From positions 248,001-312,000 of the forward strand of contig JAUHZU010000001.1 of assembly GCA_030425705.1 (NCBI GenBank): 64,000 bases of DNA. The letters are read 5' to 3'. The notes under the pieces are model-generated. The model was not told the DNA's origin. It worked only from the letters and a program-made list of their open reading frames with translations, and did not search any database. Both the position numbers and the translations under genes were made by a program. Within the stretch, counting starts at the first letter, position 1. Each line of letters starts with the position of its first letter. Origin of the DNA: Phycisphaerae bacterium. Its GTDB lineage: Bacteria > Planctomycetota > Phycisphaerae > Phycisphaerales > Phycisphaeraceae. Of the stretch, positions 2,774 to 38,864 are shown piece after piece.

Positions 2774-3871
2774 TTATTCAGCGTACTCGACAAACTCGTC
2801 GAGAACAGTGTCTGTAGTGTGGGACAAGTACTGCAAATCAACAAGGTCTCGAATGCTGCCGTATGATAAGTATGTACAACGCTCGGACAATGGCGTGTGT
2901 TCCAAAAGCGAAAACACGGGGCGTGTGATTTCTTGAAACACCTTATCTCGACGTTCTTCTGGTGCCACGAGATGAAGTGACACATTAATATTCGGCAGAA
3001 GAGCGCATAGATCTGCCATACGGAGGATGCCGGAGTAGATCGCAGTGGTGTGTTCCACCTCGAAGGCGCGTGTAATTGAACGTCCCTTTAGCCACAACAC
3101 ATCAATACGTTTAATCGTATCAAGAGTTGTTTCGTCGTAATTCAAGGGAAGTCGGTCAAGCAAAACACCTTGTTGTGGTGTCCAGTGATCTGCAACACGA
3201 GTTCGATCTGCGGCGGGAAGCCAGATTTTGAAACCCATCGCCTCACCAATGCGACATAGATCGGCCTGAACCCGTATTGATTCGCGGTCAGACGATTGTG
3301 GGCTAGTAGTCTGTTCTTTCTCAGCTGAATCATCAGGGACTGTGACGACTACTGACCCTTCGGGCCGCTGAATACGACGTTTTAGTGCACGTTCGTATTG
3401 ATCGATGTCAAAGTCAAATTTCCTGTGATCCACAGTTTGGCGCACTAACAAGTCATTCAGAAAACCACCATCTTGCGAGTCCAGTTTCTGGAGGCTGCGC
3501 CGGAGAGGACCAAGCCAGTAGCCGCCTTCCTCAACGTTCCGCGTGAATGTCAATTTCGAGAATACTTCGTCGTCCTGGATCGGAATGGTTTCGTCGAGCG
3601 GTAGCCATGCGGTTGGTGCGACCTTGAATCGTACGACAAATGGGTCGTCTTCCGGAAGAAAGATCGGTGTCTGATCTATGAATGGCCCTTCAAGTACGTC
3701 GAGGACACCTACCCATCGCGACATGCGGACCATATAACAAATGAGTTTGTCACCCACCTGAATACGGTCAGCCATCCCTTTTTGTGTTTCACGAAATCCA
3801 GAGATTGTCCGATCAGATCGAGCGAACGCCTCATAGGTTTCCGGTGTGAATAAATCAGTCCAATAGTTCAT
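2774..3871 (-). CDS. EVE-domain protein with C-terminal PD-(D/E)XK-like nuclease, probable modification-dependent restriction enzyme
   Basis: The 365-residue protein starts with an EVE (PUA-like) fold at about residues 1-140 (MNYWTDLFTPETYEAF, then GDKLICYMVRMSRWVGVLDV). EVE domains read modified bases in nucleic acids. A charged linker follows, then a C-terminal domain with a nuclease-like core around residues 250-285: an Asp in RIDVLWLK and FEVEHTT, which fit the D...ExE/K pattern of PD-(D/E)XK or Vsr-like enzymes. I infer cleavage of modified foreign DNA, for example phage DNA, without a partner methylase. The coding sequence is visibly AT-richer than its neighbours, with different codon use, suggesting transfer. 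The start has GAGAGG four bases upstream. Confidence 0.65.
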   Translation of the reverse strand: MNYWTDLFTPETYEAFARSDRTISGFRETQKGMADRIQVGDKLICYMVRMSRWVGVLDVLEGPFIDQTPIFLPEDDPFVVRFKVAPTAWLPLDETIPIQDDEVFSKLTFTRNVEEGGYWLGPLRRSLQKLDSQDGGFLNDLLVRQTVDHRKFDFDIDQYERALKRRIQRPEGSVVVTVPDDSAEKEQTTSPQSSDRESIRVQADLCRIGEAMGFKIWLPAADRTRVADHWTPQQGVLLDRLPLNYDETTLDTIKRIDVLWLKGRSITRAFEVEHTTAIYSGILRMADLCALLPNINVSLHLVAPEERRDKVFQEITRPVFSLLEHTPLSERCTYLSYGSIRDLVDLQYLSHTTDTVLDEFVEYAE

Positions 3872-23376: not shown

Positions 23377-25122
23377 TCATGTATTCATGCTCTGCCGCCT
23401 CCAGCACTCGACAGCTTTGGCTACTGCTTGCACTTTTGTATCTTCGCACCACCGGTCCCAAAAGTTAACTGTTCCGCCATCAGGTTTGGCATTTGGCTCG
23501 GCGATTCGTATTCGACTCGGTAGCAAAGATGCATCTCCAACCACTAGCGCTTCAGCAGTGTCCAAGACTGGGAGTATACCTGCAAATCCTCCCATGCTAT
23601 CAGGTAACAGCCTCTGAACTACAGATTGATCCTCCGCATTTGTCAATCGAAGAGCGATAAAGTTGTTACACTGGCTCAGTACCGTTTTGCTAACTTCAGA
23701 AGGTCGTTGACTAATGACAACAAGTCCCACGCCATACTTTCGTCCCTCTTTAGCAATTCGTTCGAAGTACGGCAACGCGACAGATGAGACACTGCCGGGA
23801 TCAGAACGATTAGGGATATACAGATGTGCCTCATCACAGAATAAAGCAATCGGATGGCGATTTGCTTTTGCGGTCCATTGCTGGACACTGAAGACCAAGC
23901 TTGCAAGTCGTCCGACCACTAGAGGCAAGATGTCTGATGGAACTTCCGAAAAGTTAATGACCTTGACGCCGCCGCACCCATCGTCTTGATCGATCGTGCC
24001 AGCAAGAAGACGAAGCGCAAACTCATCGAGCCAGGAGAAGTTACTGCATTCTGAAGGTGCGTCGAACAAAAAGCCAAGACGGCGGTCGTCTCGCTTTGCC
24101 TCAAGTCGTGCAATCAGCCGGCTTAATTTGCCGTGGAAGTCGCCTTGCTTCGCGCCCCTAGCTCCGGCCACCATCTCCGTGTTGATCTCGTTGAGCTTGG
24201 TCAGTACGGCTTGCAGTTCGAACGGAACCGGACTGTCAATAGTAAAGGCCTTTAAGATTTCGTGTTGCGTGTTCTGTGTCAAATAGTCACGCTTGGACTC
24301 CATGATCGCACGCCCCAGCAACATGGTTTGGTTCGGCGCATTCTGATCGGTACGATCTACAAAAAGGGACACAAGATCCTCATATCCTAAGAGCCAATAT
24401 GGGAAAAACATTACGTCATCTGCGGGTGAAGTATCTCCTGCGAGATCGGTAGGTCCGGCGATTCGGAAGTGGCGAACACCCTTGCCGTGAAGTGTGTGAT
24501 ATTCGCCGTGGATGTCGAAGAGAATCGCGCATGCATTCTTTAACTCTGATATGCGTTCTAGTAACAGTGCGGTTGTCCATGACTTTCCTGATCCTGTACT
24601 GCCGACAATGACGGCATGCCGCTGGAAAAATTTGTTCGCGTTGAGAAATGCTTCCGCATTCTCGTCAAGTGTGTAATGTCCCAGTGATAGGCGTTCACCA
24701 CTGTCCTTGCTTAATTGCGAAACAGCTCGCATGAAATGCGTAAGCGTTTCACCTTCAACTGAAAAGCATCTGGCATCAATCTCTGGAACACTCTCAAGCG
24801 TGCGGCGGAAGACGTCATTCTGGACCCCAAGTCGGTCAATGAACGTACCAATCAGACTGATCCGAACAATGTTGTTTTCCCTAATTTCAGCTTCTATCGA
24901 TTCATCGTCAGCAACCTCAGCACCCGCAATGGCATTGCGGATAATCTTCTGCACGATGCCAACGAGATGCTGGCCCGGCTTCGAGCTTTGTAGCGTAACT
25001 AGCCGATTCACCTGTAGCTTTCTTAGTAAGTCGACATTCTCAACCCGAACGGTTGCTGTTGCTGTATCTACTGCGGATACCAAACCAAGTGCGTCTGTGT
25101 CTTTGAAAGCGAATATCGGCAT
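23377..25122 (-). CDS. HerA-type hexameric ATPase of a SIR2-HerA defence pair
   Basis: The 581-residue protein has an N-terminal HAS-barrel-like beta domain (residues 1 to about 130) and a FtsK/HerA motor. Walker A is VIVGSTGSGKSWTTALL at about 170-186, Walker B is IALFCDEAHLYIP at about 425-437, and GVGLVVISQRPSEVSKTVLS is the typical sensor region. HerA proteins form rings that translocate or unwind DNA. The SIR2 gene ends nine bases upstream and its TAG stop overlaps the AGGA ribosome site of this gene, so the two are coupled. SIR2-HerA pairs are known anti-phage systems in which both proteins form one complex. The GC content is clearly below that of the neighbours. Confidence 0.88.
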   Translation of the reverse strand: MPIFAFKDTDALGLVSAVDTATATVRVENVDLLRKLQVNRLVTLQSSKPGQHLVGIVQKIIRNAIAGAEVADDESIEAEIRENNIVRISLIGTFIDRLGVQNDVFRRTLESVPEIDARCFSVEGETLTHFMRAVSQLSKDSGERLSLGHYTLDENAEAFLNANKFFQRHAVIVGSTGSGKSWTTALLLERISELKNACAILFDIHGEYHTLHGKGVRHFRIAGPTDLAGDTSPADDVMFFPYWLLGYEDLVSLFVDRTDQNAPNQTMLLGRAIMESKRDYLTQNTQHEILKAFTIDSPVPFELQAVLTKLNEINTEMVAGARGAKQGDFHGKLSRLIARLEAKRDDRRLGFLFDAPSECSNFSWLDEFALRLLAGTIDQDDGCGGVKVINFSEVPSDILPLVVGRLASLVFSVQQWTAKANRHPIALFCDEAHLYIPNRSDPGSVSSVALPYFERIAKEGRKYGVGLVVISQRPSEVSKTVLSQCNNFIALRLTNAEDQSVVQRLLPDSMGGFAGILPVLDTAEALVVGDASLLPSRIRIAEPNAKPDGGTVNFWDRWCEDTKVQAVAKAVECWRRQSMNT

Positions 25123-25131
25123 TTCGTATTC

Positions 25132-26163
25132 CTAGTTTTGTGTGCCAAGAGTGAGGTTCAAGAACTCTTCGAGGGTCCATAGAGAAGGAGTGTCTACTTC
25201 TATCCCACTAGTAGCTTGGTCTGTAAAAATGCGCGATCCAGATGCGCATTCTTCAATCGCCACATAATTTGACTTCACACGATTGACCAAAAATAGCTTA
25301 GATTCACTTGTTAGAGTTCGCGCTAAAACTACCACTGGGATTGTTTGTTTTTTCAGTCTTTTGACCAAGTTTGGCTCGACATGAGTATCTCGGAAGCCAA
25401 ATCCAACGCAAAGTACAGACTGCGCGGAAGTCATTGACTTGTCTGCCTCGGACAAGATTGATCTAAACGGATCAGATAAAGCTGCTTGATACTTCGTCGT
25501 GCCGGGCGTAACAATGAGCGGCATTAAATGTTCTGCTAGAGGTACATCGTCAACGCACAACGGCACACCATCACAATCTTTAAACCAGTCGATCGAACCG
25601 TGCACTTTCCAAATGTCAACAGTGCGCACTTTAGGATGACTTGCTTGCTGATCATCAAAAATGCCAAGCAATCCCGCCTTAAATCCGGTGTAGTATGCAA
25701 AGTCTGCCGCATTCGCGGCGTATTCAGCTAAGCGATCATAGTTTGTTGTCACGATCGAGATTCGATAGTGCGTGCTTTGGAATAGACGACGAAAGAGCTT
25801 CGAGAGTGGAAGTTGTACGGTCCCTTGTACGACCCCGGAGTAGACCTTGCGATCATCTTTGGATACTAAAGCGTGAGTTGTTTTCACGACCTCGTCAAGC
25901 AGTCGTTCGGGCAGAGTTACTTTTTGCAAGGCTACTTCTAAATTCTGTATAGTCGACAATTCTTTTCTGAATCGGGACCATATATCCTTGTCTGTTGGAT
26001 TCGGAGTTACAGTTGTTGCAAGGTGTTTGCCTAGCTCACCCATGCCTCCAACGCCGTGTGCCATTGACGCGCCACTTCCCAAGATAATCAAGGGCGGGCC
26101 GTTTAAAGCTTGCTGGCCGATTCGAGCGACTTTTTCAAGTAAATCGTCTTGCGTTTGTGCCAT
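25132..26163 (-). CDS. SIR2-domain NADase-type effector of a SIR2-HerA defence pair
   Basis: The 343-residue product has the SIR2 NAD-binding signature near its start (PLIILGSGASMAHGVGGMGE), then VTTNYDRLAEYAAN, a catalytic His in VDIWKVHGSIDWF and VLCVGFGFRDTHVEP near the C-terminus. Defence SIR2 proteins deplete NAD+ or act as nucleases after phage sensing. Here the partner is the HerA ATPase encoded immediately downstream. I use the ATG at 26163 (MAQTQDDLLEK); a TTG at 26184 is an in-frame alternative. Base composition is AT-rich, in line with horizontal acquisition. Confidence 0.85.
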   Translation of the reverse strand: MAQTQDDLLEKVARIGQQALNGPPLIILGSGASMAHGVGGMGELGKHLATTVTPNPTDKDIWSRFRKELSTIQNLEVALQKVTLPERLLDEVVKTTHALVSKDDRKVYSGVVQGTVQLPLSKLFRRLFQSTHYRISIVTTNYDRLAEYAANAADFAYYTGFKAGLLGIFDDQQASHPKVRTVDIWKVHGSIDWFKDCDGVPLCVDDVPLAEHLMPLIVTPGTTKYQAALSDPFRSILSEADKSMTSAQSVLCVGFGFRDTHVEPNLVKRLKKQTIPVVVLARTLTSESKLFLVNRVKSNYVAIEECASGSRIFTDQATSGIEVDTPSLWTLEEFLNLTLGTQN

Positions 26164-26302
26164 ATTTTGGATATCTCGAACCAATGTTGTTTAGGACGAC
26201 CCGCAGTGTCGCGCTACTTGAACTTCAAACGGCCAAACTTGACTATCCCCGAACAACCAAAGGATGTGAAAAGCCCAGAACCAACGGGGAATCTGCCCAG
26301 AC

Positions 26303-29694: not shown

Positions 29695-31011
29695 TCATCC
29701 CCTCGGGCGCCTGTGGAGGAGCGCCCCGGCGGTATGGCCGCCGAAGCCCGCGGCGAAGACGGCGTGCGTGCCTGCGTCGTCGCACGCGGCGGGTCGAAGG
29801 GAGGCGGCTGCGCCGTTCAGGTCGATCGGCTGGTCCAGCCAGGGCATGGGGGGGAGCTTGCCCGTCCGCAGCGCGAGGAGCGCGAGGACGAGGGAAGCCA
29901 GGCCCGAAGCGCCCAGCGCGTGACCGAGTGCGCCTTTGCAGGCGTACAGGCCGACCGGTGGGGAGCCGTGCGTGCCGGGCCCGTGGGAGTTGCTGAGCGT
30001 CTGGAGGAGGGCGCTCAGCTCCCGCGGGTCGTGGTCGGGGGTGCCCGGGGCGTGGGGGTGCATGACATCGATGCGGCGGCCGTGTGCCTTAGCCGAGGCG
30101 AAGAGCCGGCCGGCGACGTATCGGAGCGCGTCCATGTGGTCGCTGGGGCGCAGCAGGTCGGTGGCCTCGCAGGCGGTGGCGGTGTCGAGGAGCTCGGTTT
30201 CGCCGGGCGCGGGGGCTTGGCCGCGTGGGAGCCGGCGGAGCAGGACGGCCACGCCCATCTCGCTGAGCATGAAGCCGACCCGGCGTTCGTCCAGCGGGCG
30301 TTCGCGGTAGCTGTCGGCGGAGGGCTCGGCGAGGACGCCCAGGCGGAGGTAGCTGTGCACAAACGCGGGGGTGAGCGCGGCGTCGGCGCTGAGGACCAGC
30401 ATCCAGTCGTTGCCCGCGCCGTCGGGCGCAGCCGCGAGCCGGCGGCGGGCGGTGTCTAACGCCGTGAGCCCGGAGGCGCAGGCGGCGACGCTGTGGCCGC
30501 GCGGCCGCGTGCCTAACCGCCTGGCGAGCGTATGCGCGAGGTAGCCGTGCGGCCCGAGCGCGAGGGTATGTTGGCCGGCCTCATCGAGCGGCTTGCCCAT
30601 GCCCAGTTGTGTGGACACCTGCGCGACCGCACCCTTGCTCGTGCCCAGCATCATCGGCAGACCCGCGACCGGCCGGCCCGCCATCGCGGCGGCCTCGCGC
30701 GCCGCGCGCTCCGCCAGCTCGACCGCCGGGTCGACCGCGCTGTGGCGCACCGCCGAGACCCCGCCCAGCGCCGCGACCCACTCCGCGGGGCGCAGCCCCC
30801 CGGGCAACGCATGGGCACGGTCGCTGATCGACCGGCCCGCCAGCAGCGAGCGGTAGGTCGGCCAGGCCCCGTCCCCCAACGGCGTGACCAGGCCGAAGCC
30901 GGCGACCACGATCCGCGCGTCGTCGGGCGCGGGGTGCGGGATGGGTTGTGCGTCGGGTGTAGGCATGAACGGCGGCAGGCGGATGGCGGGCGTGTGCGTT
31001 GGTTTGCTCAT
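29695..31011 (-). CDS. Beta-ketoacyl synthase (KAS I/II type), divergent
   Basis: The 438-residue protein has the thiolase-like ketosynthase fold. Catalytic residues are visible: the nucleophilic Cys in HSVAACASGLTALDTA, a His in HPHAPGTPDHDPRE (replacing the usual HGTGT context) and the Lys-His pair in CKGALGHALGASG. The N-terminus has a Pro-rich tail before RIVVAGFGLVTPLGDG. No acyl carrier or acyltransferase gene is adjacent. It is divergent, by 74 bp, from the oxidoreductase-like gene and lies near the E1-lipoyl-KAS III fusion, pointing to a shared acyl-condensing pathway rather than standard fatty-acid synthesis. Starts at 31011 and 30966 are both possible. Confidence 0.82.
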   Translation of the reverse strand: MSKPTHTPAIRLPPFMPTPDAQPIPHPAPDDARIVVAGFGLVTPLGDGAWPTYRSLLAGRSISDRAHALPGGLRPAEWVAALGGVSAVRHSAVDPAVELAERAAREAAAMAGRPVAGLPMMLGTSKGAVAQVSTQLGMGKPLDEAGQHTLALGPHGYLAHTLARRLGTRPRGHSVAACASGLTALDTARRRLAAAPDGAGNDWMLVLSADAALTPAFVHSYLRLGVLAEPSADSYRERPLDERRVGFMLSEMGVAVLLRRLPRGQAPAPGETELLDTATACEATDLLRPSDHMDALRYVAGRLFASAKAHGRRIDVMHPHAPGTPDHDPRELSALLQTLSNSHGPGTHGSPPVGLYACKGALGHALGASGLASLVLALLALRTGKLPPMPWLDQPIDLNGAAASLRPAACDDAGTHAVFAAGFGGHTAGALLHRRPRG

Positions 31012-31085
31012 CCCGGTAGGGGGGCCGATGATAGCGGCGCGGCCGAGGCGTGGGGCGGGCCGCGCATGGGAGTCCGGCACCGCCG

Positions 31086-34000
31086 ATGACGAACGAGACA
31101 CCCCCCGATACCGGGCTGGTCCAGACGCAGGGTCAGGCGCTGCTGACGACGCCGAAGATGCTGCTGCGCGCGGCGTTGTCGGCCGGTTGCGACGTGGTAA
31201 TCACCGCACGGATCGGCGCGCCCGAGTCGGCGGCGGAGCTGATCGAGGGCCACCGCGGCTGGCTGGCGGACCAGGGGGTGGAGGCGTTGGTGCTGCCCGA
31301 CAGCGTGCACGCGTTGGCGGCGGCGCGCGGCGCGGTGGTGGCCGGGCGCCGCGGGCTGCTGCTGCTGGAGGCGAAGTCGGTGCCGGAGGCGGGCTGGCTG
31401 TCGCTGGGGGGCGGCGGGGAGCCGGACGAGACGCGGGGGGCGGTGGTGCTGGTGGCGGGGCCGGTGGATACGCCGGAGGGTCGGCGGGCGTGTGAGGCGT
31501 GGGGCGCGGGCGGCGTGGCGGTGTTTGAGCCGGCGCTGCACGGGGAGGTCATCCCGTGGTTCGCGGTCGCGCTGCAGTCGGCGGGGCTCGCGGGGGGGTG
31601 GTCGGCGATGGGGCTGGCCGGAGAATTGTGGGACGGGTTTGCGACCGTCGCATGCGGGCCGACCGGTGGCCGTTCGTCGTCTTCGGGGGTCTCGTCCGCC
31701 CGGCCGAGCGAGCAGGTACAGAGCGAGCGGCTGGTCGCGCTGGCGCGTGAGCATTCGGTCAACACGATCGTGAACCCGCCGGGCCGGGACGAGGCGTTGC
31801 CGCTCGGGCTGATCGCGGGCGGGGTGGGTTACGCGCGTCTGCGGCAGGTCATCAGCGAGCTGGGGCTGATCGGTCGGCTGCCGATCCTCCGGCTGGGGAT
31901 GGCGGGCCCGCTGGACACCGAACTGCTGTCGCGCCACGCGCGGGACTGCCGGGCGTTGTGGGTCGTGGACCACCGCGAAGGCGGGTTGTACCGAGCAGTG
32001 GCGGCGGCGTTGCAACGCCGTGCCGGCGAACCGGTTCAGGCGAAGCTCGGCGCACTGCTGGAGTCTTCTGACGCGTCGCCCGGCGCGGTGCTGATGGGGT
32101 TGGCGCCGCACCTGAGCGGGCACCCGGCGGTGCCGCGGGAGGTGCTGGATGGCGCGCTCGACGCACTGCAGCGGCAGGTGCGCGCCGCCGCGGAGGGCAC
32201 GGACGAGACCATGCGCGACGTGCTCCCGCCGCCGGGCAGCGCGCTGGTCGATGTCGCGGCGGTGCTCGGTCGTCTGCGCCAGGACCTGACCGATGCGCAG
32301 TACATGTCCGAGCAGCACGGCCGGGGCCCGCTCGACCTGGTGCTCTACGGCGCGCTGGACGACCAGTCCCGCGCGCTGGTCGCCGACGAGGGCGCGGCGG
32401 TCACCGAGACGCTGGTGCCCGGCACGGTCGCGGGCGGCGCGGCGCACGGCGCGGGCGCACGCGACGACCTGCGCCCGGTCGTGGTGATGTCCGGCCGGGA
32501 CTTCTTCGCCAACGGCTACGCCTCCATCGCCAACGCGTCGCGCGGCGCTCGCGACATCACGTTCATCATCCACACCGAAGACCCGGCTACGCTGCGCAAA
32601 CGCAAGCGCCGCCGCCGACGGTTCAGGCGTCGGCCCGCCCCGGGGGTGCTGGACGTGCAGGCGATGCTCTCGGCGCTTTCGGCCGACGGCATCCACCACG
32701 GCATCAGCATCGGCGAGATCGACCCCACAGACCGACCGCGCCTCCGCCGGCTGCTCGAACGCTCGCTGGTGGGGCGCGGTGTCCACGTTGTGCTGGCCCG
32801 CCGCCGCTTCGGCCCGCGTGCGCTGGCAGAGGCGGCGCGCGAGACACAGCGCGAGTGGATCGAGCACAGCCACAACCCGGTCCAGCAGCAGCTGGTGCTT
32901 TGCCCGGAGGTCTGGCCGTTGGGCCCGGCCCAGCGCCTGCACCTGGGGCCTTTGGGGCTGGAGCCCGCGCCGGGCGAGACCGGCGGGTGGATGACCAGCG
33001 TGTCCTGGGGCTGGGCCGGCAAGCCGATGCTCAAGGCGCTGGCGAACCCGTCGCTCGGGCTGGCGACGGTGGTCCGCACGGGTCCGGAGCGCAGCCGGCT
33101 CGACGAGTCGGAGTTGGCCGACCTGCCCGCGCTGCCCCGGCCGGTCCACGCCGAGCAGGAGGTCTGGCGGGCGAGCGTGGCGGGGGTCGCGCTGGCGGGG
33201 ATGGACCTGCTGCTGGACCTGCTGACCGAGGCGGGCACGGCGATGGGCTACCAGGTGCGCGGCTCGCGCACCGACACGCTGTCCCTGGCGAGCACGGGCG
33301 GGCGGGCGGACGTGGTGTTCAGCAGCCGGCCGCGCGAGCAGGAGCTGACGGTCGCCGGCTCGCCGGGCCGATCGACACGAGCGATGTCCTCGTCGGCGCC
33401 AACGCCCGGCTCCACGGACCTGGTGCTGGGGACCGATGCACGCGAGTCGGTCGCGGCGCTGCTGGCCGTCGGCGGCGCGGGGCGGACCTCGGCGGTGGTG
33501 GACACCGCCGCGCTGCCGACCCTCGCGGAGCTCAAGGCCGGTCGGCCCGCGGCGAATACCGACACGCTGCACCGCGCTCTATCGAGCCGCACCCGGCCGA
33601 GCGGCGGGCTCGCGATGCCCGCCGCCGAGCTGAGCGAGTACCTGTGGGGCCACCGGCGGTTCGCGTCGTGGCTGATCATGGGCGCGGCCCTGCAGCTCGG
33701 GCTGGTCCCGCTGAACCGCCAGGCCGTCGACGCCGCGACCCGGCGGGTGCTTGGCCGCAACGACCTCCGCTGCCGGCAGGCGATCGACGTCGGCCGAAAG
33801 CTCGCGGTCGACCCCGGCTTCGCGGACCGGTGCCTGTCGGTCGACGAGGAAAGCCCCGAGACGCTGCTGGAGTCCGTGACCGAGGACCTCGCCCAGCAGT
33901 ACGGCGGGCGCAGCGGCCCGAGTGTGTCGCGCGAGTTCCACGGCCTGGTCGCGCCGCTGCTCGAACGCTGCGCCCCGCTGGACCCGGCCGTCCGAACCCG

Positions 34001-34622
34001 TCTGGTCCACGCCGCGCACCGCTGCGCCGTCTGGGGCGGCAAGCGCGGCGGCGTCGCGTACGCTCGGCGGTACTGCGAGGCCGTCGGCCTGCTGCTGGAC
34101 CACGACCAGCCCGAACGTCACTACGAGCTGACCCGCCGCGGCATCGACAGCGCCGCACGCGTGATGGTCGTCCCCGACGAGGTCTACCTGGCGTCGCTTC
34201 TGACCTCGCCGCTGCGGTACCGGCGGGACCGGCGTCGGCTGAACATCGCGCTCGAACGCGGTGACAAGGTCAGCTACCTGCACGTGGTCCGCCCGGAGTT
34301 CGACATCTTCAAGCGACACATCGCGTTCACGCTGACGCTCGGCGAGCGGTCGCTGCGGCTGCTGGCCCGGCTGCAGGTCGTCCGCCGGGTCCGCGCGGGC
34401 TGGTACCGCGAGCAGCGCGGGCTGCGCGACCTGTACCTGCAGACGCTGGCCGGCGTGTCGGATACCGCCGACCTGAGCGACTACCGCAAGTGGTGCGCGA
34501 TCGCCTCGAGCACCGCGCGGATCGCCGGCCGGGGTGAGACCCGCCGGCAGGCCGTCCGCGAAGCCCGGGCTCGCCTGGACCGGCTGGTCGCGGTCGATGC
34601 CAAACAGCTCGCGAACGAATAG
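31086..34622 (+). CDS. Indolepyruvate ferredoxin oxidoreductase-like giant protein without Fe-S cysteine motifs
   Basis: The 1178-residue protein has the length and order of fused alpha-gamma 2-oxoacid:ferredoxin oxidoreductases. The N-terminal pyrimidine-like domain (LLTTPKMLLRAALSAGCDVV) is followed by VNPPGRDEALPLGLIAGGVG and RLPILRLGMAGPLDTELLSR, the transketolase C-terminal-like part. A thiamine-domain remnant (MSGRDFFANGYASIANASRG) comes next, then a very basic run RKRKRRRRRFRRR near residue 505, a gamma-like domain (ASVAGVALAGMDLLLDLLTE) and a helical C-terminus like DUF6537. I found no CxxC pair or ferredoxin motif, and the GDG thiamine motif is altered. It may be a redirected or inactive paralogue. 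It lies 74 bp from the ketosynthase and 140 bp from the E1 fusion. Confidence 0.6.
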   Translation: MTNETPPDTGLVQTQGQALLTTPKMLLRAALSAGCDVVITARIGAPESAAELIEGHRGWLADQGVEALVLPDSVHALAAARGAVVAGRRGLLLLEAKSVPEAGWLSLGGGGEPDETRGAVVLVAGPVDTPEGRRACEAWGAGGVAVFEPALHGEVIPWFAVALQSAGLAGGWSAMGLAGELWDGFATVACGPTGGRSSSSGVSSARPSEQVQSERLVALAREHSVNTIVNPPGRDEALPLGLIAGGVGYARLRQVISELGLIGRLPILRLGMAGPLDTELLSRHARDCRALWVVDHREGGLYRAVAAALQRRAGEPVQAKLGALLESSDASPGAVLMGLAPHLSGHPAVPREVLDGALDALQRQVRAAAEGTDETMRDVLPPPGSALVDVAAVLGRLRQDLTDAQYMSEQHGRGPLDLVLYGALDDQSRALVADEGAAVTETLVPGTVAGGAAHGAGARDDLRPVVVMSGRDFFANGYASIANASRGARDITFIIHTEDPATLRKRKRRRRRFRRRPAPGVLDVQAMLSALSADGIHHGISIGEIDPTDRPRLRRLLERSLVGRGVHVVLARRRFGPRALAEAARETQREWIEHSHNPVQQQLVLCPEVWPLGPAQRLHLGPLGLEPAPGETGGWMTSVSWGWAGKPMLKALANPSLGLATVVRTGPERSRLDESELADLPALPRPVHAEQEVWRASVAGVALAGMDLLLDLLTEAGTAMGYQVRGSRTDTLSLASTGGRADVVFSSRPREQELTVAGSPGRSTRAMSSSAPTPGSTDLVLGTDARESVAALLAVGGAGRTSAVVDTAALPTLAELKAGRPAANTDTLHRALSSRTRPSGGLAMPAAELSEYLWGHRRFASWLIMGAALQLGLVPLNRQAVDAATRRVLGRNDLRCRQAIDVGRKLAVDPGFADRCLSVDEESPETLLESVTEDLAQQYGGRSGPSVSREFHGLVAPLLERCAPLDPAVRTRLVHAAHRCAVWGGKRGGVAYARRYCEAVGLLLDHDQPERHYELTRRGIDSAARVMVVPDEVYLASLLTSPLRYRRDRRRLNIALERGDKVSYLHVVRPEFDIFKRHIAFTLTLGERSLRLLARLQVVRRVRAGWYREQRGLRDLYLQTLAGVSDTADLSDYRKWCAIASSTARIAGRGETRRQAVREARARLDRLVAVDAKQLANE

Positions 34623-34762: not shown

Positions 34763-37700
34763 ATGACCACCCAGCCCGACCTGCTCAAGACCCAGCGCGC
34801 CGCCCGGCCCGACCCGGCCGGGCTCGACGCCATCTCCCACGACCGCCTCGCCGACGTCTACCGCGCGATGCGCGCCGCCCGCACCGTCGACCGCATCGAG
34901 CAGGAGCTCTGCGCCGCCGGCGAGGGCTTCTTCCACATCGCCGGCACCGGGCACGAGGCCGCCGCGGCGCTCAACCTCTTCTTCACGCCCGAGGACTGGC
35001 TGCACCCGCACTACCGCGACAAGGCGCTCATGCTCGCCCGTGGGGTCCAGACCCAGGCCTGGTTCGACTCGCTCCTGTCCAATGCCGGCAACTACGCCGC
35101 GGGCCGACAGATGGCCTGCTTCCTCGCCGACAACACCCTGAACCTGCCCAGCACCGTCATCCCCGTTGGCAACAACGCGTTGCAGGCCTGCGGCATTGCC
35201 ATGCAGGTCAAGGACCAGCCCGGCCGGCCCATCGTCCTCTGCGGGCTGGGCGACGGCACGACCCAGCAGGGCGAGGTCATGGAGGCCATCGCCCAGGCCG
35301 TCCGCGAGAACCTGCCCGTGCTGTTCTGGGTCCAGGACAACGGCCTGGCTATCTCCACGCAGACCGCCGGCAAGACGTTCTACAACCTGCCCGGCTGCGA
35401 GAACGACCGGTTCTTCGGGCTGGACGTCCACCATTTCGATGGCACGGACATCCTCCAGGACGTGCCCCGCATCGGCGCGCTGGTGGACGAGGTCCGCACG
35501 ACCCGCGGCCCGCGCCTCGCCGTGATGCACGTCGAGCGGCTGTGCAGCCACTCCAACGCCGACGACCAGCGCATCTACCGGATGGACGGCGAGATCGACC
35601 GCGTCCGGGCCGAAAGCGACCCGGTGCTGAACATGCGTAAGGCCCTGGTCGCGCACGGGCTCAGCGCCGCGGACCTGGACACGATCGATGAAGAGGTCGA
35701 GCGCGACTGCCGTGCCGCCGCGGAGCGCGCCCGTCGTATCGGTGACCCGGTCGCCTGCCACACCGCCAGCCGCGACCTGCCCGACCACCTGCTCCCCGCC
35801 AACGCGAAGCAGCACGAGTACCTCGGCAGCGCCGACCCCACCGCCCACGAGAACCCCGACGCCATCACTATGATTGAGGCGATGCGCGGCGTCCTCGCCC
35901 ACCGCCTCGCCGCCGACGAACGCGTCACCCTGCTGGGCCAGGACATCGAGGACCCCAAGGGCGACGTCTTCGGCGTCACCAAGGGGCTGTCGACGAAGTT
36001 CCCCGGCCGGGTCACCAACGCGCCGCTCGCCGAGTCGACCATCATCGGCACCAGCATCGGCCGGGCCATCGCCGGCGGCCGGCCCGTCGGGTTTATCCAG
36101 TTCGCCGACTTCCTGCCGACCGGCATCGGCCAATTGATGTCCGAGGTCGGCACGATGTTCTGGCGCAGCAACGGCCAGTTCGAGTGCCCGCTCATCCTGA
36201 TGATCACCTGCGGCGCCTACCGCCCCGGGCTCGGGCCGTTCCACAGCCAGACCCTCGAGTCGATCGTCGCGCACATGCCCGGCATCGACGTCATGATGCC
36301 AAGCTCCGCCTCCGACGCCGCGGCCATGCTCAACGCCGCGTTCGAGTCGGGCCGGCCCACCGTGTTCCTCTACCCCAAGGTCTGCCTCAACGACCGCGCT
36401 CCCTGGAAACTCACGTCCAAAGACGTTGATAAGCACCTCGCGCCCGTCGGCAGCGCGCGCATCCTCCGCAAGGGCAACGACCTCACCCTCGTCGCCTGGG
36501 GCAGCACCGTCACCATCGGCATGGGCGTCGCCGAGAAACTTGATGCCGCGGGCTTCGGCGTCGAGCTCATCGACCTGCGCTGCATCTCGCCCTGGGACCG
36601 CGACACGGTCATCGCCAGCGCACGCAAGACCGGCAAGCTGCTCGTAGTCCACGAAGACAACCTCACGCTCGGCTTCGGCGCGGAGATCCTCGCCACCGTG
36701 CTCGAGACGCTCGGCCATGAGATCAAGGCCAAACGCGTCACCCGAAGCGACACGTGGACGCCGTACAACTACACGAACCAGCTCGAGGTCCTCCCCAGCT
36801 ACCGCCGGACGCTGACCATCGCCTGCGAGCTGCTGGGGCTGAGCATCCGCTGGCCCGAAACGCATCACACCGACGACGATGGGCTGACCGAGATCGTGGA
36901 GGCCGAGGGCTCCAGCCCCGCGGACCAGTCGGTGACGATCAGCGCCTGGAAGGTGGCGGTTGGGGACACGGTGAAGTCCGGCCAGCTCCTCGCCGAGGCC
37001 GAGGCCGACAAGGCCGTCTTCGAGATCAACTCGCGTTACGACGGCACGGTCACGGAGCTCATGGTCGAGGAGGAGCAGACGGTCGACGTCGGCACGCCGA
37101 TCCTGAAGATCCGCACCGAGCAGGCCGAGCCCGGGCAGCGCGTGATGAAGCGTCAGACCCGCGAGGACCTGGGCCACCCCGAGATCAACAGCCCCGCCGC
37201 GCCAGTCACCTCCAGAGACCGCGAGCTGACCGACGCCGTCGGCAGCCGGGTGAAGATCTACCTCTCACCGATCCACATCGCCGAGGGCCGCGACCGGCTG
37301 ACCAACACGCTGTTCGAGCGCCGCTTCCCCGAGTGGACCAGCGACGACATCATCAAGCGCACCGGGATCGAGTCCCGCCCGATCCTCGCGCCCGACCAGA
37401 CCGCCGTCTCCATCGGTGCCGACGCCGCACGCAAGGCGCTCGAGGCCGAGGGGCTTACCCTCGACGACCTCACCGGCATCGTCTGCCACACGACGACCCC
37501 GCCGATGAACACGCCGTCCATGGCCTGCATGATCCTCCGCGAGCTGGACCCGGAGGCGAAGCACGAGCTGATGGTCTACGACGTCAACGCCGCGTGCTCC
37601 GGCTGGCTCTACGCGCTAGACACCGCCTACCACACCATCCTTACGCAGCCACACAAGGCCGTCCTCGTCGTCACGACCGAGGCGCTCTCCCGCGTCGTCG

Positions 37701-38224
37701 ATCCCAACGACTTCGGCACCGCGATCCTCTTCGGCGACGCCGCGAGCGCGACCGTCGTCCGTGGCACGACCAGCGACTCGGTCTGCTCCGACAGCGGCCG
37801 GTGCCTGGTCATGCGTCGGCCCGTCCTGTCCGGCAAGGCCGACAAGGGCAACGTCCTCACCGTCGGGTTCGAGGGCCGCAGCCACGTGCACATGGACGGG
37901 CAGAAGGTCTTCGCCGAGGCCGTCCGCGCGATGACGAAGATGGTCAAGCAGGCGTTCGAGGAGTCCGGCCTGCCGATCAACCAAGTCGACTGGCTGGTCC
38001 CGCACCAGGCCAACAGCCGCATCGCCGAGGCCGTGCGCGCCCGGCTCAAGGTCCCGCCGGAGAAGGTCGTCGACCTGCTCTCGACGCACGGCAACACGTC
38101 GTCGTCCTCCATCCCGCTGTCGATCTGCAAGTCCTACGAGCGCTTCGAGAAGGGCGACACGATCGGCGTCTGCGCCTTCGGCGGCGGCTTCACCTTCGGC
38201 GCCGGCGTGATGACGGTGGAGTAG
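34763..38224 (+). CDS. Four-part fusion: 2-oxoacid dehydrogenase E1-alpha, E1-beta, lipoyl domain, KAS III
   Basis: The 1153-residue protein joins four modules. Residues about 25-360 are E1-alpha, with the thiamine-diphosphate motif GLGDGTTQQGEVMEA and VQDNGLAIST. Residues 370-690 are E1-beta (GQDIEDPKGDVFGVTKGL, NAPLAESTIIG, GAYRPGLGPFHSQTLES). Residues 710-790 are a lipoyl domain with the lipoylation Lys750 in EADKAVFEIN. Residues 825-1153 are a KAS III (FabH-type) domain with Cys945 (NAACSGW), His1081 (VPHQANSR) and Asn1111 (HGNTSSSS), a complete triad. No E2 acyltransferase domain is present. I infer that a decarboxylated 2-oxoacid is carried as acyl-lipoyl and passed straight to the KAS III cysteine. 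GAAAGGGC precedes the ATG. Confidence 0.85.
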   Translation: MTTQPDLLKTQRAARPDPAGLDAISHDRLADVYRAMRAARTVDRIEQELCAAGEGFFHIAGTGHEAAAALNLFFTPEDWLHPHYRDKALMLARGVQTQAWFDSLLSNAGNYAAGRQMACFLADNTLNLPSTVIPVGNNALQACGIAMQVKDQPGRPIVLCGLGDGTTQQGEVMEAIAQAVRENLPVLFWVQDNGLAISTQTAGKTFYNLPGCENDRFFGLDVHHFDGTDILQDVPRIGALVDEVRTTRGPRLAVMHVERLCSHSNADDQRIYRMDGEIDRVRAESDPVLNMRKALVAHGLSAADLDTIDEEVERDCRAAAERARRIGDPVACHTASRDLPDHLLPANAKQHEYLGSADPTAHENPDAITMIEAMRGVLAHRLAADERVTLLGQDIEDPKGDVFGVTKGLSTKFPGRVTNAPLAESTIIGTSIGRAIAGGRPVGFIQFADFLPTGIGQLMSEVGTMFWRSNGQFECPLILMITCGAYRPGLGPFHSQTLESIVAHMPGIDVMMPSSASDAAAMLNAAFESGRPTVFLYPKVCLNDRAPWKLTSKDVDKHLAPVGSARILRKGNDLTLVAWGSTVTIGMGVAEKLDAAGFGVELIDLRCISPWDRDTVIASARKTGKLLVVHEDNLTLGFGAEILATVLETLGHEIKAKRVTRSDTWTPYNYTNQLEVLPSYRRTLTIACELLGLSIRWPETHHTDDDGLTEIVEAEGSSPADQSVTISAWKVAVGDTVKSGQLLAEAEADKAVFEINSRYDGTVTELMVEEEQTVDVGTPILKIRTEQAEPGQRVMKRQTREDLGHPEINSPAAPVTSRDRELTDAVGSRVKIYLSPIHIAEGRDRLTNTLFERRFPEWTSDDIIKRTGIESRPILAPDQTAVSIGADAARKALEAEGLTLDDLTGIVCHTTTPPMNTPSMACMILRELDPEAKHELMVYDVNAACSGWLYALDTAYHTILTQPHKAVLVVTTEALSRVVDPNDFGTAILFGDAASATVVRGTTSDSVCSDSGRCLVMRRPVLSGKADKGNVLTVGFEGRSHVHMDGQKVFAEAVRAMTKMVKQAFEESGLPINQVDWLVPHQANSRIAEAVRARLKVPPEKVVDLLSTHGNTSSSSIPLSICKSYERFEKGDTIGVCAFGGGFTFGAGVMTVE

Positions 38225-38243: not shown

Positions 38244-38864
38244 ATGCACCTCGCCTTCATCGGTATGTCCGGCATCGGCAAGTCCTACTGGGCGCGGCGG
38301 CTCGCGCAGCGCGGCTGGCTGCACCTGGACTGTGACGCGATGATCGCCGAGCGTTTGGGCGAGCTCATCGAGGTCGCCGACAACGAGGACCCCGTCCACG
38401 CCGTCGGCCGGTGGATGGGCATGCCCTGGACGCCCGGCTACGCCGAGCGCGAGACGCGGTACCTCGAACTCGAACGCGCGGTGACCGCCGAAGCCCTCGA
38501 CACCGCCGCGACGCAGCCGGCCGACCGCGGCGTCGTGCTCGACACGACCGGCAGCGTGATCTACACCGGCGATACCACGCTCGACCGGCTCAGGCATGAG
38601 ACCCATGTGATCTACTTCGACGCACCCGAATCCGTGCGAGAGCAGATGGTCGAGCTATACCTGCGCGAGCCCAAGCCCGTGCTGTGGCAGGGCGGCTATC
38701 AACCCGTACCAGGGGAAGCTCAAGACGCAGCGCTGGCGAGGTGCTATGCGGCATTGTTGGCAAAACGGCATGCTCGATACAGTCGGCTTTCGAGTAAAAC
38801 AATCGCTTACAACGTGGCTCGGCAAGCAGATTTCGACGAGACCGATCTGATCAGCTTATCTTAG
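38244..38864 (+). CDS. P-loop kinase resembling shikimate kinase
   Basis: The 206-residue protein starts with MHLAFIGMSGIGKSYWARRL, a Walker A loop of the shikimate-kinase/AAA kinase type, followed by WLHLDCDAMIAERLG, a substrate-binding Asp position. A DTTGSVIYTGD segment may be the Walker B region, and YFDAPESVREQMVELYLREP resembles a lid. It is longer than shikimate kinase (about 170 residues), and the shikimate-binding arginines are not certain, so the phosphate acceptor is open. It starts 19 bp after the fusion gene and is likely cotranscribed. Confidence 0.7.
   Translation: MHLAFIGMSGIGKSYWARRLAQRGWLHLDCDAMIAERLGELIEVADNEDPVHAVGRWMGMPWTPGYAERETRYLELERAVTAEALDTAATQPADRGVVLDTTGSVIYTGDTTLDRLRHETHVIYFDAPESVREQMVELYLREPKPVLWQGGYQPVPGEAQDAALARCYAALLAKRHARYSRLSSKTIAYNVARQADFDETDLISLS

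Follow-up and report, generated by a model that had tools for sequence, protein, structure and literature searches.

The gene at positions 34763–38224 (forward strand) of a 64,000-nucleotide stretch of a Phycisphaerae bacterium genome (contig JAUHZU010000001.1, positions 248,001–312,000; hereafter the window) encodes a 1,153-residue protein that joins in a single polypeptide the alpha and beta parts of a 2-oxoacid dehydrogenase E1, a lipoyl domain and a β-ketoacyl-acyl carrier protein synthase III (KAS III). In standard 2-oxoacid dehydrogenase complexes, the acyl group passes via the dihydrolipoamide acyltransferase, E2, to coenzyme A (CoA). We propose that the fusion is probably a single-chain 2-oxoacid dehydrogenase in which KAS III replaces E2, acting as a CoA-free synthase that turns 2-oxoacids into 3-oxoacyl-acyl carrier protein (ACP). 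The architecture is conserved across genomes, the catalytic residues are intact, and both residues of the FabH-type adenine clamp are lost. On our reading of these sequences, the acyl group would be handed directly from the lipoyl arm to the ketosynthase, with malonyl-ACP as the acceptor.

The four modules lie in one frame, from an ATG at 34763 to a stop codon ending at 38224, with no internal stop. A putative ribosome site precedes the ATG (by eye), and a promoter and terminator scan gave nothing exceeding chance. The E1-alpha domain, the thiamine-binding half, spans residues 33–326 (34859–35740; Pfam E1_dh, 8.5e-33), and the E1-beta domain residues 367–675 (35861–36787; Transket_pyr 367–539, Transketolase_C 563–675); together these three Pfam domains identify an α2β2-type 2-oxoacid dehydrogenase E1. 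The lipoyl domain covers residues ∼708–785 (36884–37117; Pfam Biotin_lipoyl 724–783 and the strands of a structural model) and has the lipoyl fold, with Lys750 (37010–37012) inside an E-x-D-K-A type motif. A linker (residues ∼786–830; 37118–37252) leads to the KAS III domain (residues ∼831–1153; 37253–38221), which Pfam (ACP_syn_III 939–1005, ACP_syn_III_C 1066–1150), NCBIfam, alignments and Foldseek all recognize. This domain has the thiolase fold and the Cys-His-Asn triad of KAS III in the broad sense: Cys945 (37595–37597), His1081 (38003–38005) and Asn1111 (38093–38095). The protein has no Pfam match to 2-oxoacid_dh, the E2 catalytic domain, or to the peripheral-subunit-binding domain, and by these two domains it is not an E2. 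The frame and the Pfam matches thus bear out the original prediction of four modules and no E2 domain in one polypeptide.

The AlphaFold2 model, a single chain built from a 37-sequence alignment of fusions, has a mean predicted local distance difference test score of 87.1 and a predicted template-modelling (TM) score of 0.69. Its low-confidence stretches (residues 701–705, 790–796 and 812–828) fall on both flanks of the lipoyl domain, the latter two in the linker to KAS III. Across the 37 fusions this linker is 36–64 residues long, measured between positions 785 and 830 of the window protein. In Foldseek searches the best match of the KAS part was FabH and that of the E1-beta part a branched-chain 2-oxoacid dehydrogenase E1-beta (target-normalised TM score ∼0.9 each).

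The key residues of every module are conserved. In all 37 aligned full-length fusions, His263 of E1-alpha, Glu424 and His494 of E1-beta, lipoyl Lys750, and KAS residues Cys945, His1081, Asn1111 and Arg1086 are invariant; Lys750 and the KAS triad had been predicted to be intact, and they are. By motif, we take His263 and His494 to correspond to human His291-α and His146-β′, the two histidines of reductive acylation. The titles of two human structures found by Foldseek (1ols and 1olx) name the role of two histidines in that reaction. The invariance of these E1, lipoyl and KAS residues indicates a protein equipped for both lipoyl acylation and condensation, with Lys750 as the putative site of lipoylation.

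The CoA site is where the fusions depart from FabH. In FabH, Trp32 and Arg151 clamp the adenine of CoA. Our alignment set the KAS parts of the fusions (37 sequences) against the E. coli enzyme and 33 stand-alone FabH proteins, of which 30 come from the family Phycisphaeraceae, one from the window genome itself and the rest from genomes G340 and G341. The Trp32 place is Trp in 33 of 33 FabH proteins and Asp, Ala, Glu, Lys or Gly in all 37 fusions; the Arg151 place is Arg in 33 of 33 and Phe, Tyr, Pro, Gln, Thr or Ala in all 37. In the window protein the segment WTSDDIIKRT (residues 858–867; 37334–37363) stands against TSDEWIVTRT of E. coli FabH, with Trp32 missing, and Phe984 (37712–37714) occupies the Arg151 place. 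By contrast, all fusions and FabH proteins aligned are identical in the Cys-His-Asn triad and at the Arg249 place, which serves ACP docking in FabH and is Arg1086 of the fusion. The clamp Trp and Arg are also present in the five best PDB FabH alignments, E. coli included, and Trp32, Arg36 and Arg151 are kept in all six plasmid-borne stand-alone KAS III proteins that we hand-picked from 357 matching records. The title of structure 2ahb describes a double Arg mutant of a mycobacterial FabH; the second Arg corresponds to Arg151. The loop at FabH residues ∼190–205 appears shortened in the fusions (by eye).

The last third of the protein scores above the NCBIfam cut-off of a broad β-ketoacyl-ACP synthase 3 subfamily (266.8 versus 249) and below that of the FabH model TIGR00747 (235.6 versus 292.1 bits); the ten other fusion KAS matches in Phycisphaeraceae also fall below the latter. 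All 12 fusion-bearing Phycisphaeraceae genomes, and G340 and G341 as well, encode a canonical FabH that clears the curated cut-off; we therefore reject the idea that the fusion is the housekeeping FabH.

The fusion also has homologues that carry an E2 instead. In the planctomycete family f52, the protein is a single E1–lipoyl–E2 chain at five of six loci, the sixth having a broken frame in its E2 part, and the verrucomicrobial protein L121 has this layout too (by Pfam for L016 and L121, by sequence reading for L017–L019 and L021). KAS III of the fusion occupies the exact place of the E2 acyltransferase in these chains, which share its order through the lipoyl domain but end in E2.

Trees of the separate parts agree with a single origin. 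A quick unrooted tree was built from 65 E1 parts; in it, the 38 rows from KAS fusions form one side of a branch with support 100, and the E1–E2 chains join at more than one place outside that side; the program warns of long branches. In a second quick unrooted tree, with 34 FabH proteins and L091, the fusion KAS parts form one side of a branch with support 99, the long-branched KAS III L091 joining on the fusion side. Pairwise divergences of the E1, lipoyl and KAS parts correlate (r=0.83–0.84). These results are consistent with parts that fused once and then descended together, though shared genome descent would also raise the correlation. As part of our proposal, a single-chain 2-oxoacid dehydrogenase would have had its E2 exchanged for KAS III.

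As a separate observation, the f52 proteins (L016–L021) carry the lipoyl motif E-A-N-K, and in their E2 part Asn replaces Asp of the D-H-R-x-x-D-G motif, which we take to be that of E2. The broken frame is that of L020.

We suggest the following catalytic cycle. E1, using thiamine diphosphate, would decarboxylate a 2-oxoacid and, by reductive acylation, load the lipoyl arm at Lys750. Swinging on the linkers at either end, the lipoyl domain would then reach the active site of KAS III, where the acyl group would pass to Cys945. KAS III would condense it with malonyl-ACP, using His1081 and Asn1111, releasing CO2 and yielding 3-oxoacyl-ACP. Re-oxidation of the dihydrolipoyl arm would fall to a separate lipoamide dehydrogenase (E3) acting in trans; the window genome encodes two E3 proteins above cut-off. 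CoA would be used at no step. Three things together favour direct transfer: none of the 37 fusions has the clamp residues, but all keep the triad and Arg249, E2 is absent, and homologous chains carry E2 at the same place. To this extent the original prediction, of a protein that skips CoA by handing acyl-lipoyl directly to the KAS III cysteine, stands as the best-supported reading; its further claim, that the starter units made are branched or aryl, is not established.

The E1 part leans only weakly to branched-chain substrates. Against solved structures, E1-beta scores 189 bits with a Thermus 2-oxo acid dehydrogenase and 184 with two branched-chain enzymes, and E1-alpha scores 110 bits with the Thermus enzyme versus 68 bits with 1w85. 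However, among chains labelled pyruvate dehydrogenase, 1ik6 scores equally well in E1-beta (183.5 bits; 1w85, 151 bits), and the NCBIfam matches of the E1 part are pyruvate dehydrogenase models; the lean is weak for these two reasons. We saw no evidence of aryl units. On the KAS side, we take FabH Phe87 to restrict the size of the acyl group. Its place is Thr in 36 of 37 fusions and Ser in one, so the pocket of the fusions could accept groups larger than acetyl.

Several observations weigh against direct transfer from lipoyl to KAS III. The window genome encodes three E2 proteins that could in principle serve in trans. Its LipA-like frame falls below cut-off and is matched in two pieces. The Arg36 place, which in FabH also contacts CoA, is kept in 32 of 37 fusions, and in 22 of 37 a Trp lies four residues ahead of the lost Trp32 and might stack on adenine instead. 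The counterpart of Trp32 itself shifts with the alignment: it is Asp862 in the alignment of the 37 fusions with FabH, and a gap in the plasmid KAS III alignment and in four of the five PDB alignments. A KAS III that uses acyl-ACP may also lack the clamp, and its loss does not single out a lipoyl donor. Finally, the FabH Lys214 place is Lys or Arg in 33 of 33 FabH proteins versus 20 of 37 fusions, and the ACP contacts of the fusions may accordingly differ as well. The LipA-like match (G000:C7:178995-180146) has its two pieces inside one 454-residue frame, as if with an insert.

Some of these points bear on the alternative that survives best, although we still judge it unlikely: that the halves are merely joined, E1–lipoyl feeding an external E2 to make acyl-CoA and KAS III independently using acyl-CoA or acyl-ACP. 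The three E2 proteins, the two other E1 sets of the genome (one fused E1 and one split pair), the mostly kept Arg36 and the nearby Trp are all consistent with this. But the protein has neither an E2 nor a peripheral-subunit-binding domain, and the closest E2 gene seen on the same contig lies ∼110 kilobases away. Moreover, the clamp is gone from every aligned fusion, and the join has been kept over two phyla while no neighbouring gene is common to more than eight of 26 loci.

KAS III might instead act as an acyltransferase only, a KAS-type stand-in for E2 that moves the acyl group from lipoyl to ACP or another thiol without forming a carbon–carbon bond. We rank this second among the alternatives and, again, as improbable. 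A precedent of sorts comes from the dnacin cluster, where PMC7570522 proposes the KAS-III-like DinQ, a homologue of NapE, as an acyl loader to ACP beside the transketolase-like DinS and DinU (NapD and NapB). Two Streptomyces plasmids, in which an E1 gene is followed by a synthase beginning lipoyl–E2–ACP, also speak for such loading. However, the Cys-His-Asn triad of decarboxylative condensation is kept in all 37 fusions, and no ACP gene was recognized among the tested window neighbours, the small frames of which were not searched systematically.

A third alternative, which we find hard to credit, has KAS III elongating, or starting from, acyl-ACP while the lipoyl domain serves another acceptor. 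Clamp loss fits any donor other than CoA, and the Arg249 place is kept; this alternative nonetheless leaves unexplained why KAS III sits at the place of E2 in homologous chains. An assembly join or frameshift artefact, finally, can be rejected with near certainty: we found no point in its support, and the fusion frame is intact in many independent genomes, some of only one to six contigs.

How widely is the fusion spread? Proteins with the same domain order in one frame occur in other Phycisphaeraceae and in Verrucomicrobiota, at 42–83% identity. Within Phycisphaeraceae the fusion is matched in 12 of 51 genomes, belonging to 6 of 33 genera. One of these matches is cut at a contig end before its KAS part (G297) and another lacks its last residues, also at a contig end (G296). 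Intact relatives in the family share 83, 71, 70, 59–61, 56 and 52% identity and include genomes of one, two and six contigs. An evenly drawn sample of the order (201 genomes) returned the same 12 genomes. In an evenly drawn sample of the phylum (294 genomes), the fusion was found only in the window genome and two others, the other 23 matches being E1 alone or E1–lipoyl–E2. In Verrucomicrobiota, the phylum of G340, the full-length fusion is present in 27 of 288 genomes, and in two others a contig end leaves only a piece of it. A single pass through named genomes, with patterns near the window protein, recovered full-length fusions in three Phycisphaeraceae, one Verrucomicrobiota and one uncultured bacterium, and a sixth record with an E1 piece at a contig end; other phyla are possible. 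In a plasmid collection, none of 994 matching records had a single place covering 80% of the query. The distribution is patchy, yet it spans two phyla. The original prediction would have fallen had the fusion been missing from relatives or been a join artefact; instead, it is intact in the family and in Verrucomicrobiota.

None of the systems with which we compared the fusion is a one-chain E1–lipoyl–KAS III. Branched-chain and pyruvate dehydrogenase complexes (E1–E2–E3) share its E1 alpha/beta fold, catalytic residues and lipoyl domain, whereas the fusion lacks their E2 catalytic and subunit-binding domains and has KAS III instead, all in one chain. FabH and other KAS III starter enzymes share the fold, the triad and the Arg249 place; unlike them, the fusion is joined to E1–lipoyl and has lost Trp32 and Arg151. 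Two Streptomyces plasmid clusters (L141 from 17044 onward; L142 from 13950 onward) place E1 beside a lipoyl domain at the head of an assembly line, but there E2 and ACP are retained between lipoyl and ketosynthase. This lipoyl–E2–ACP–ketosynthase start behind the E1 gene resembles a module for loading the line from acyl-lipoyl.

The nearest parallels, NapB/NapD with NapE and Photorhabdus BkdABC, are separate proteins. NapB and NapD resemble E1–lipoyl. In the naphthyridinomycin and dnacin clusters, NapB/NapD (DinU/DinS) are described as a two-component transketolase beside the ACP NapC (DinT) and the KAS-III-like NapE (DinQ) (PMC7570522). There the substrate is a sugar phosphate, and the role proposed for the KAS-III-like protein is glyceryl loading rather than condensation; the likeness is one of description only. 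Photorhabdus BkdABC, again likened by description only, is encoded by three genes. This keto-acid dehydrogenase operon is said to form a 5-methyl-3-oxohexanoyl thioester, with ACP or CoA left open (PMC4578411). PMC4578411 and PMC4901931 give the product as a 3-oxoacyl thioester and describe BkdB as containing an ACP, whereas PMC3838401 gives the product as isovaleryl-CoA. The original prediction knew of no characterized enzyme with the domain order of the fusion; likewise, our searches of an open-licence library, outside which most subscription papers lie, gave no description of it.

The neighbouring genes name no product. Near the fusion, on the reverse strand, lies a divergent KAS II (FabF)-type ketosynthase (29695–31101) with Cys-His-His in place by alignment reading; it is a possible partner, found near the fusion at six of eight Phycisphaeraceae loci. 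Just upstream, on the forward strand (31050–34622), and at four of these eight loci, is a 1,190-residue indolepyruvate-oxidoreductase-like protein with DUF6537 and a weak POR match. It lacks both the CxxC and the GDG motif, matches no solved structure significantly, and looks from its sequence like an oxidoreductase with lost iron–sulfur and thiamine sites. Directly downstream (38244–38864, forward strand) is a small P-loop (AAA_33) protein, a homologue of which also directly follows the fusion at L008 and L009.

We compared neighbours over 26 loci, some cut by contig ends, and list clusters of at least three loci. The commonest neighbour, a protein of ∼760 residues, is common to eight of 26, and all those shown are Verrucomicrobiota-type loci. 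Six loci of this type (L123, L125–L128, L130) have P-II-like and ammonium-transporter-like genes (named by eye) near the fusion, and four loci have mreB/rodA-like surroundings (by eye). The KAS II-type and oxidoreductase-like neighbours were seen in none of the 18 other loci. Subsets of loci share local gene order, as related genomes would. We therefore rejected an operon-based function, and since any one neighbour is found at no more than eight of 26 loci, the fusion looks like a self-contained enzyme.

Elsewhere in the window, a HerA-type helicase gene (23377–25122, reverse strand) adjoins a SIR2 protein gene (25132–26184, reverse strand) in an island of low guanine-plus-cytosine content; their PADLOC matches (2.6e-233 and 5.9e-109) are those of a SIR2–HerA type anti-phage defence pair. 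PADLOC also matches another gene of low guanine-plus-cytosine content (2774–3871, reverse strand) with a type II restriction enzyme, at 2.4e-15.

Textbooks treat the oxidation of keto acids and the initiation of chains as two separate steps, with acyl-CoA as the link between them. On balance we lean towards the view that the fusion represents a widespread, CoA-independent start of fatty-acid or polyketide chains, in which KAS III has taken the place of E2 and a ketosynthase acts directly on lipoyl-bound acyl groups. If this is true, the enzyme would open a new route into fatty-acid synthesis by way of the lipoyl arm, and starter supply would be tied directly to the catabolism of keto acids, such as those from amino acids. 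The protein would also be a ready-made module for CoA-free starter making, and the fusion family offers dozens of natural variants of it.

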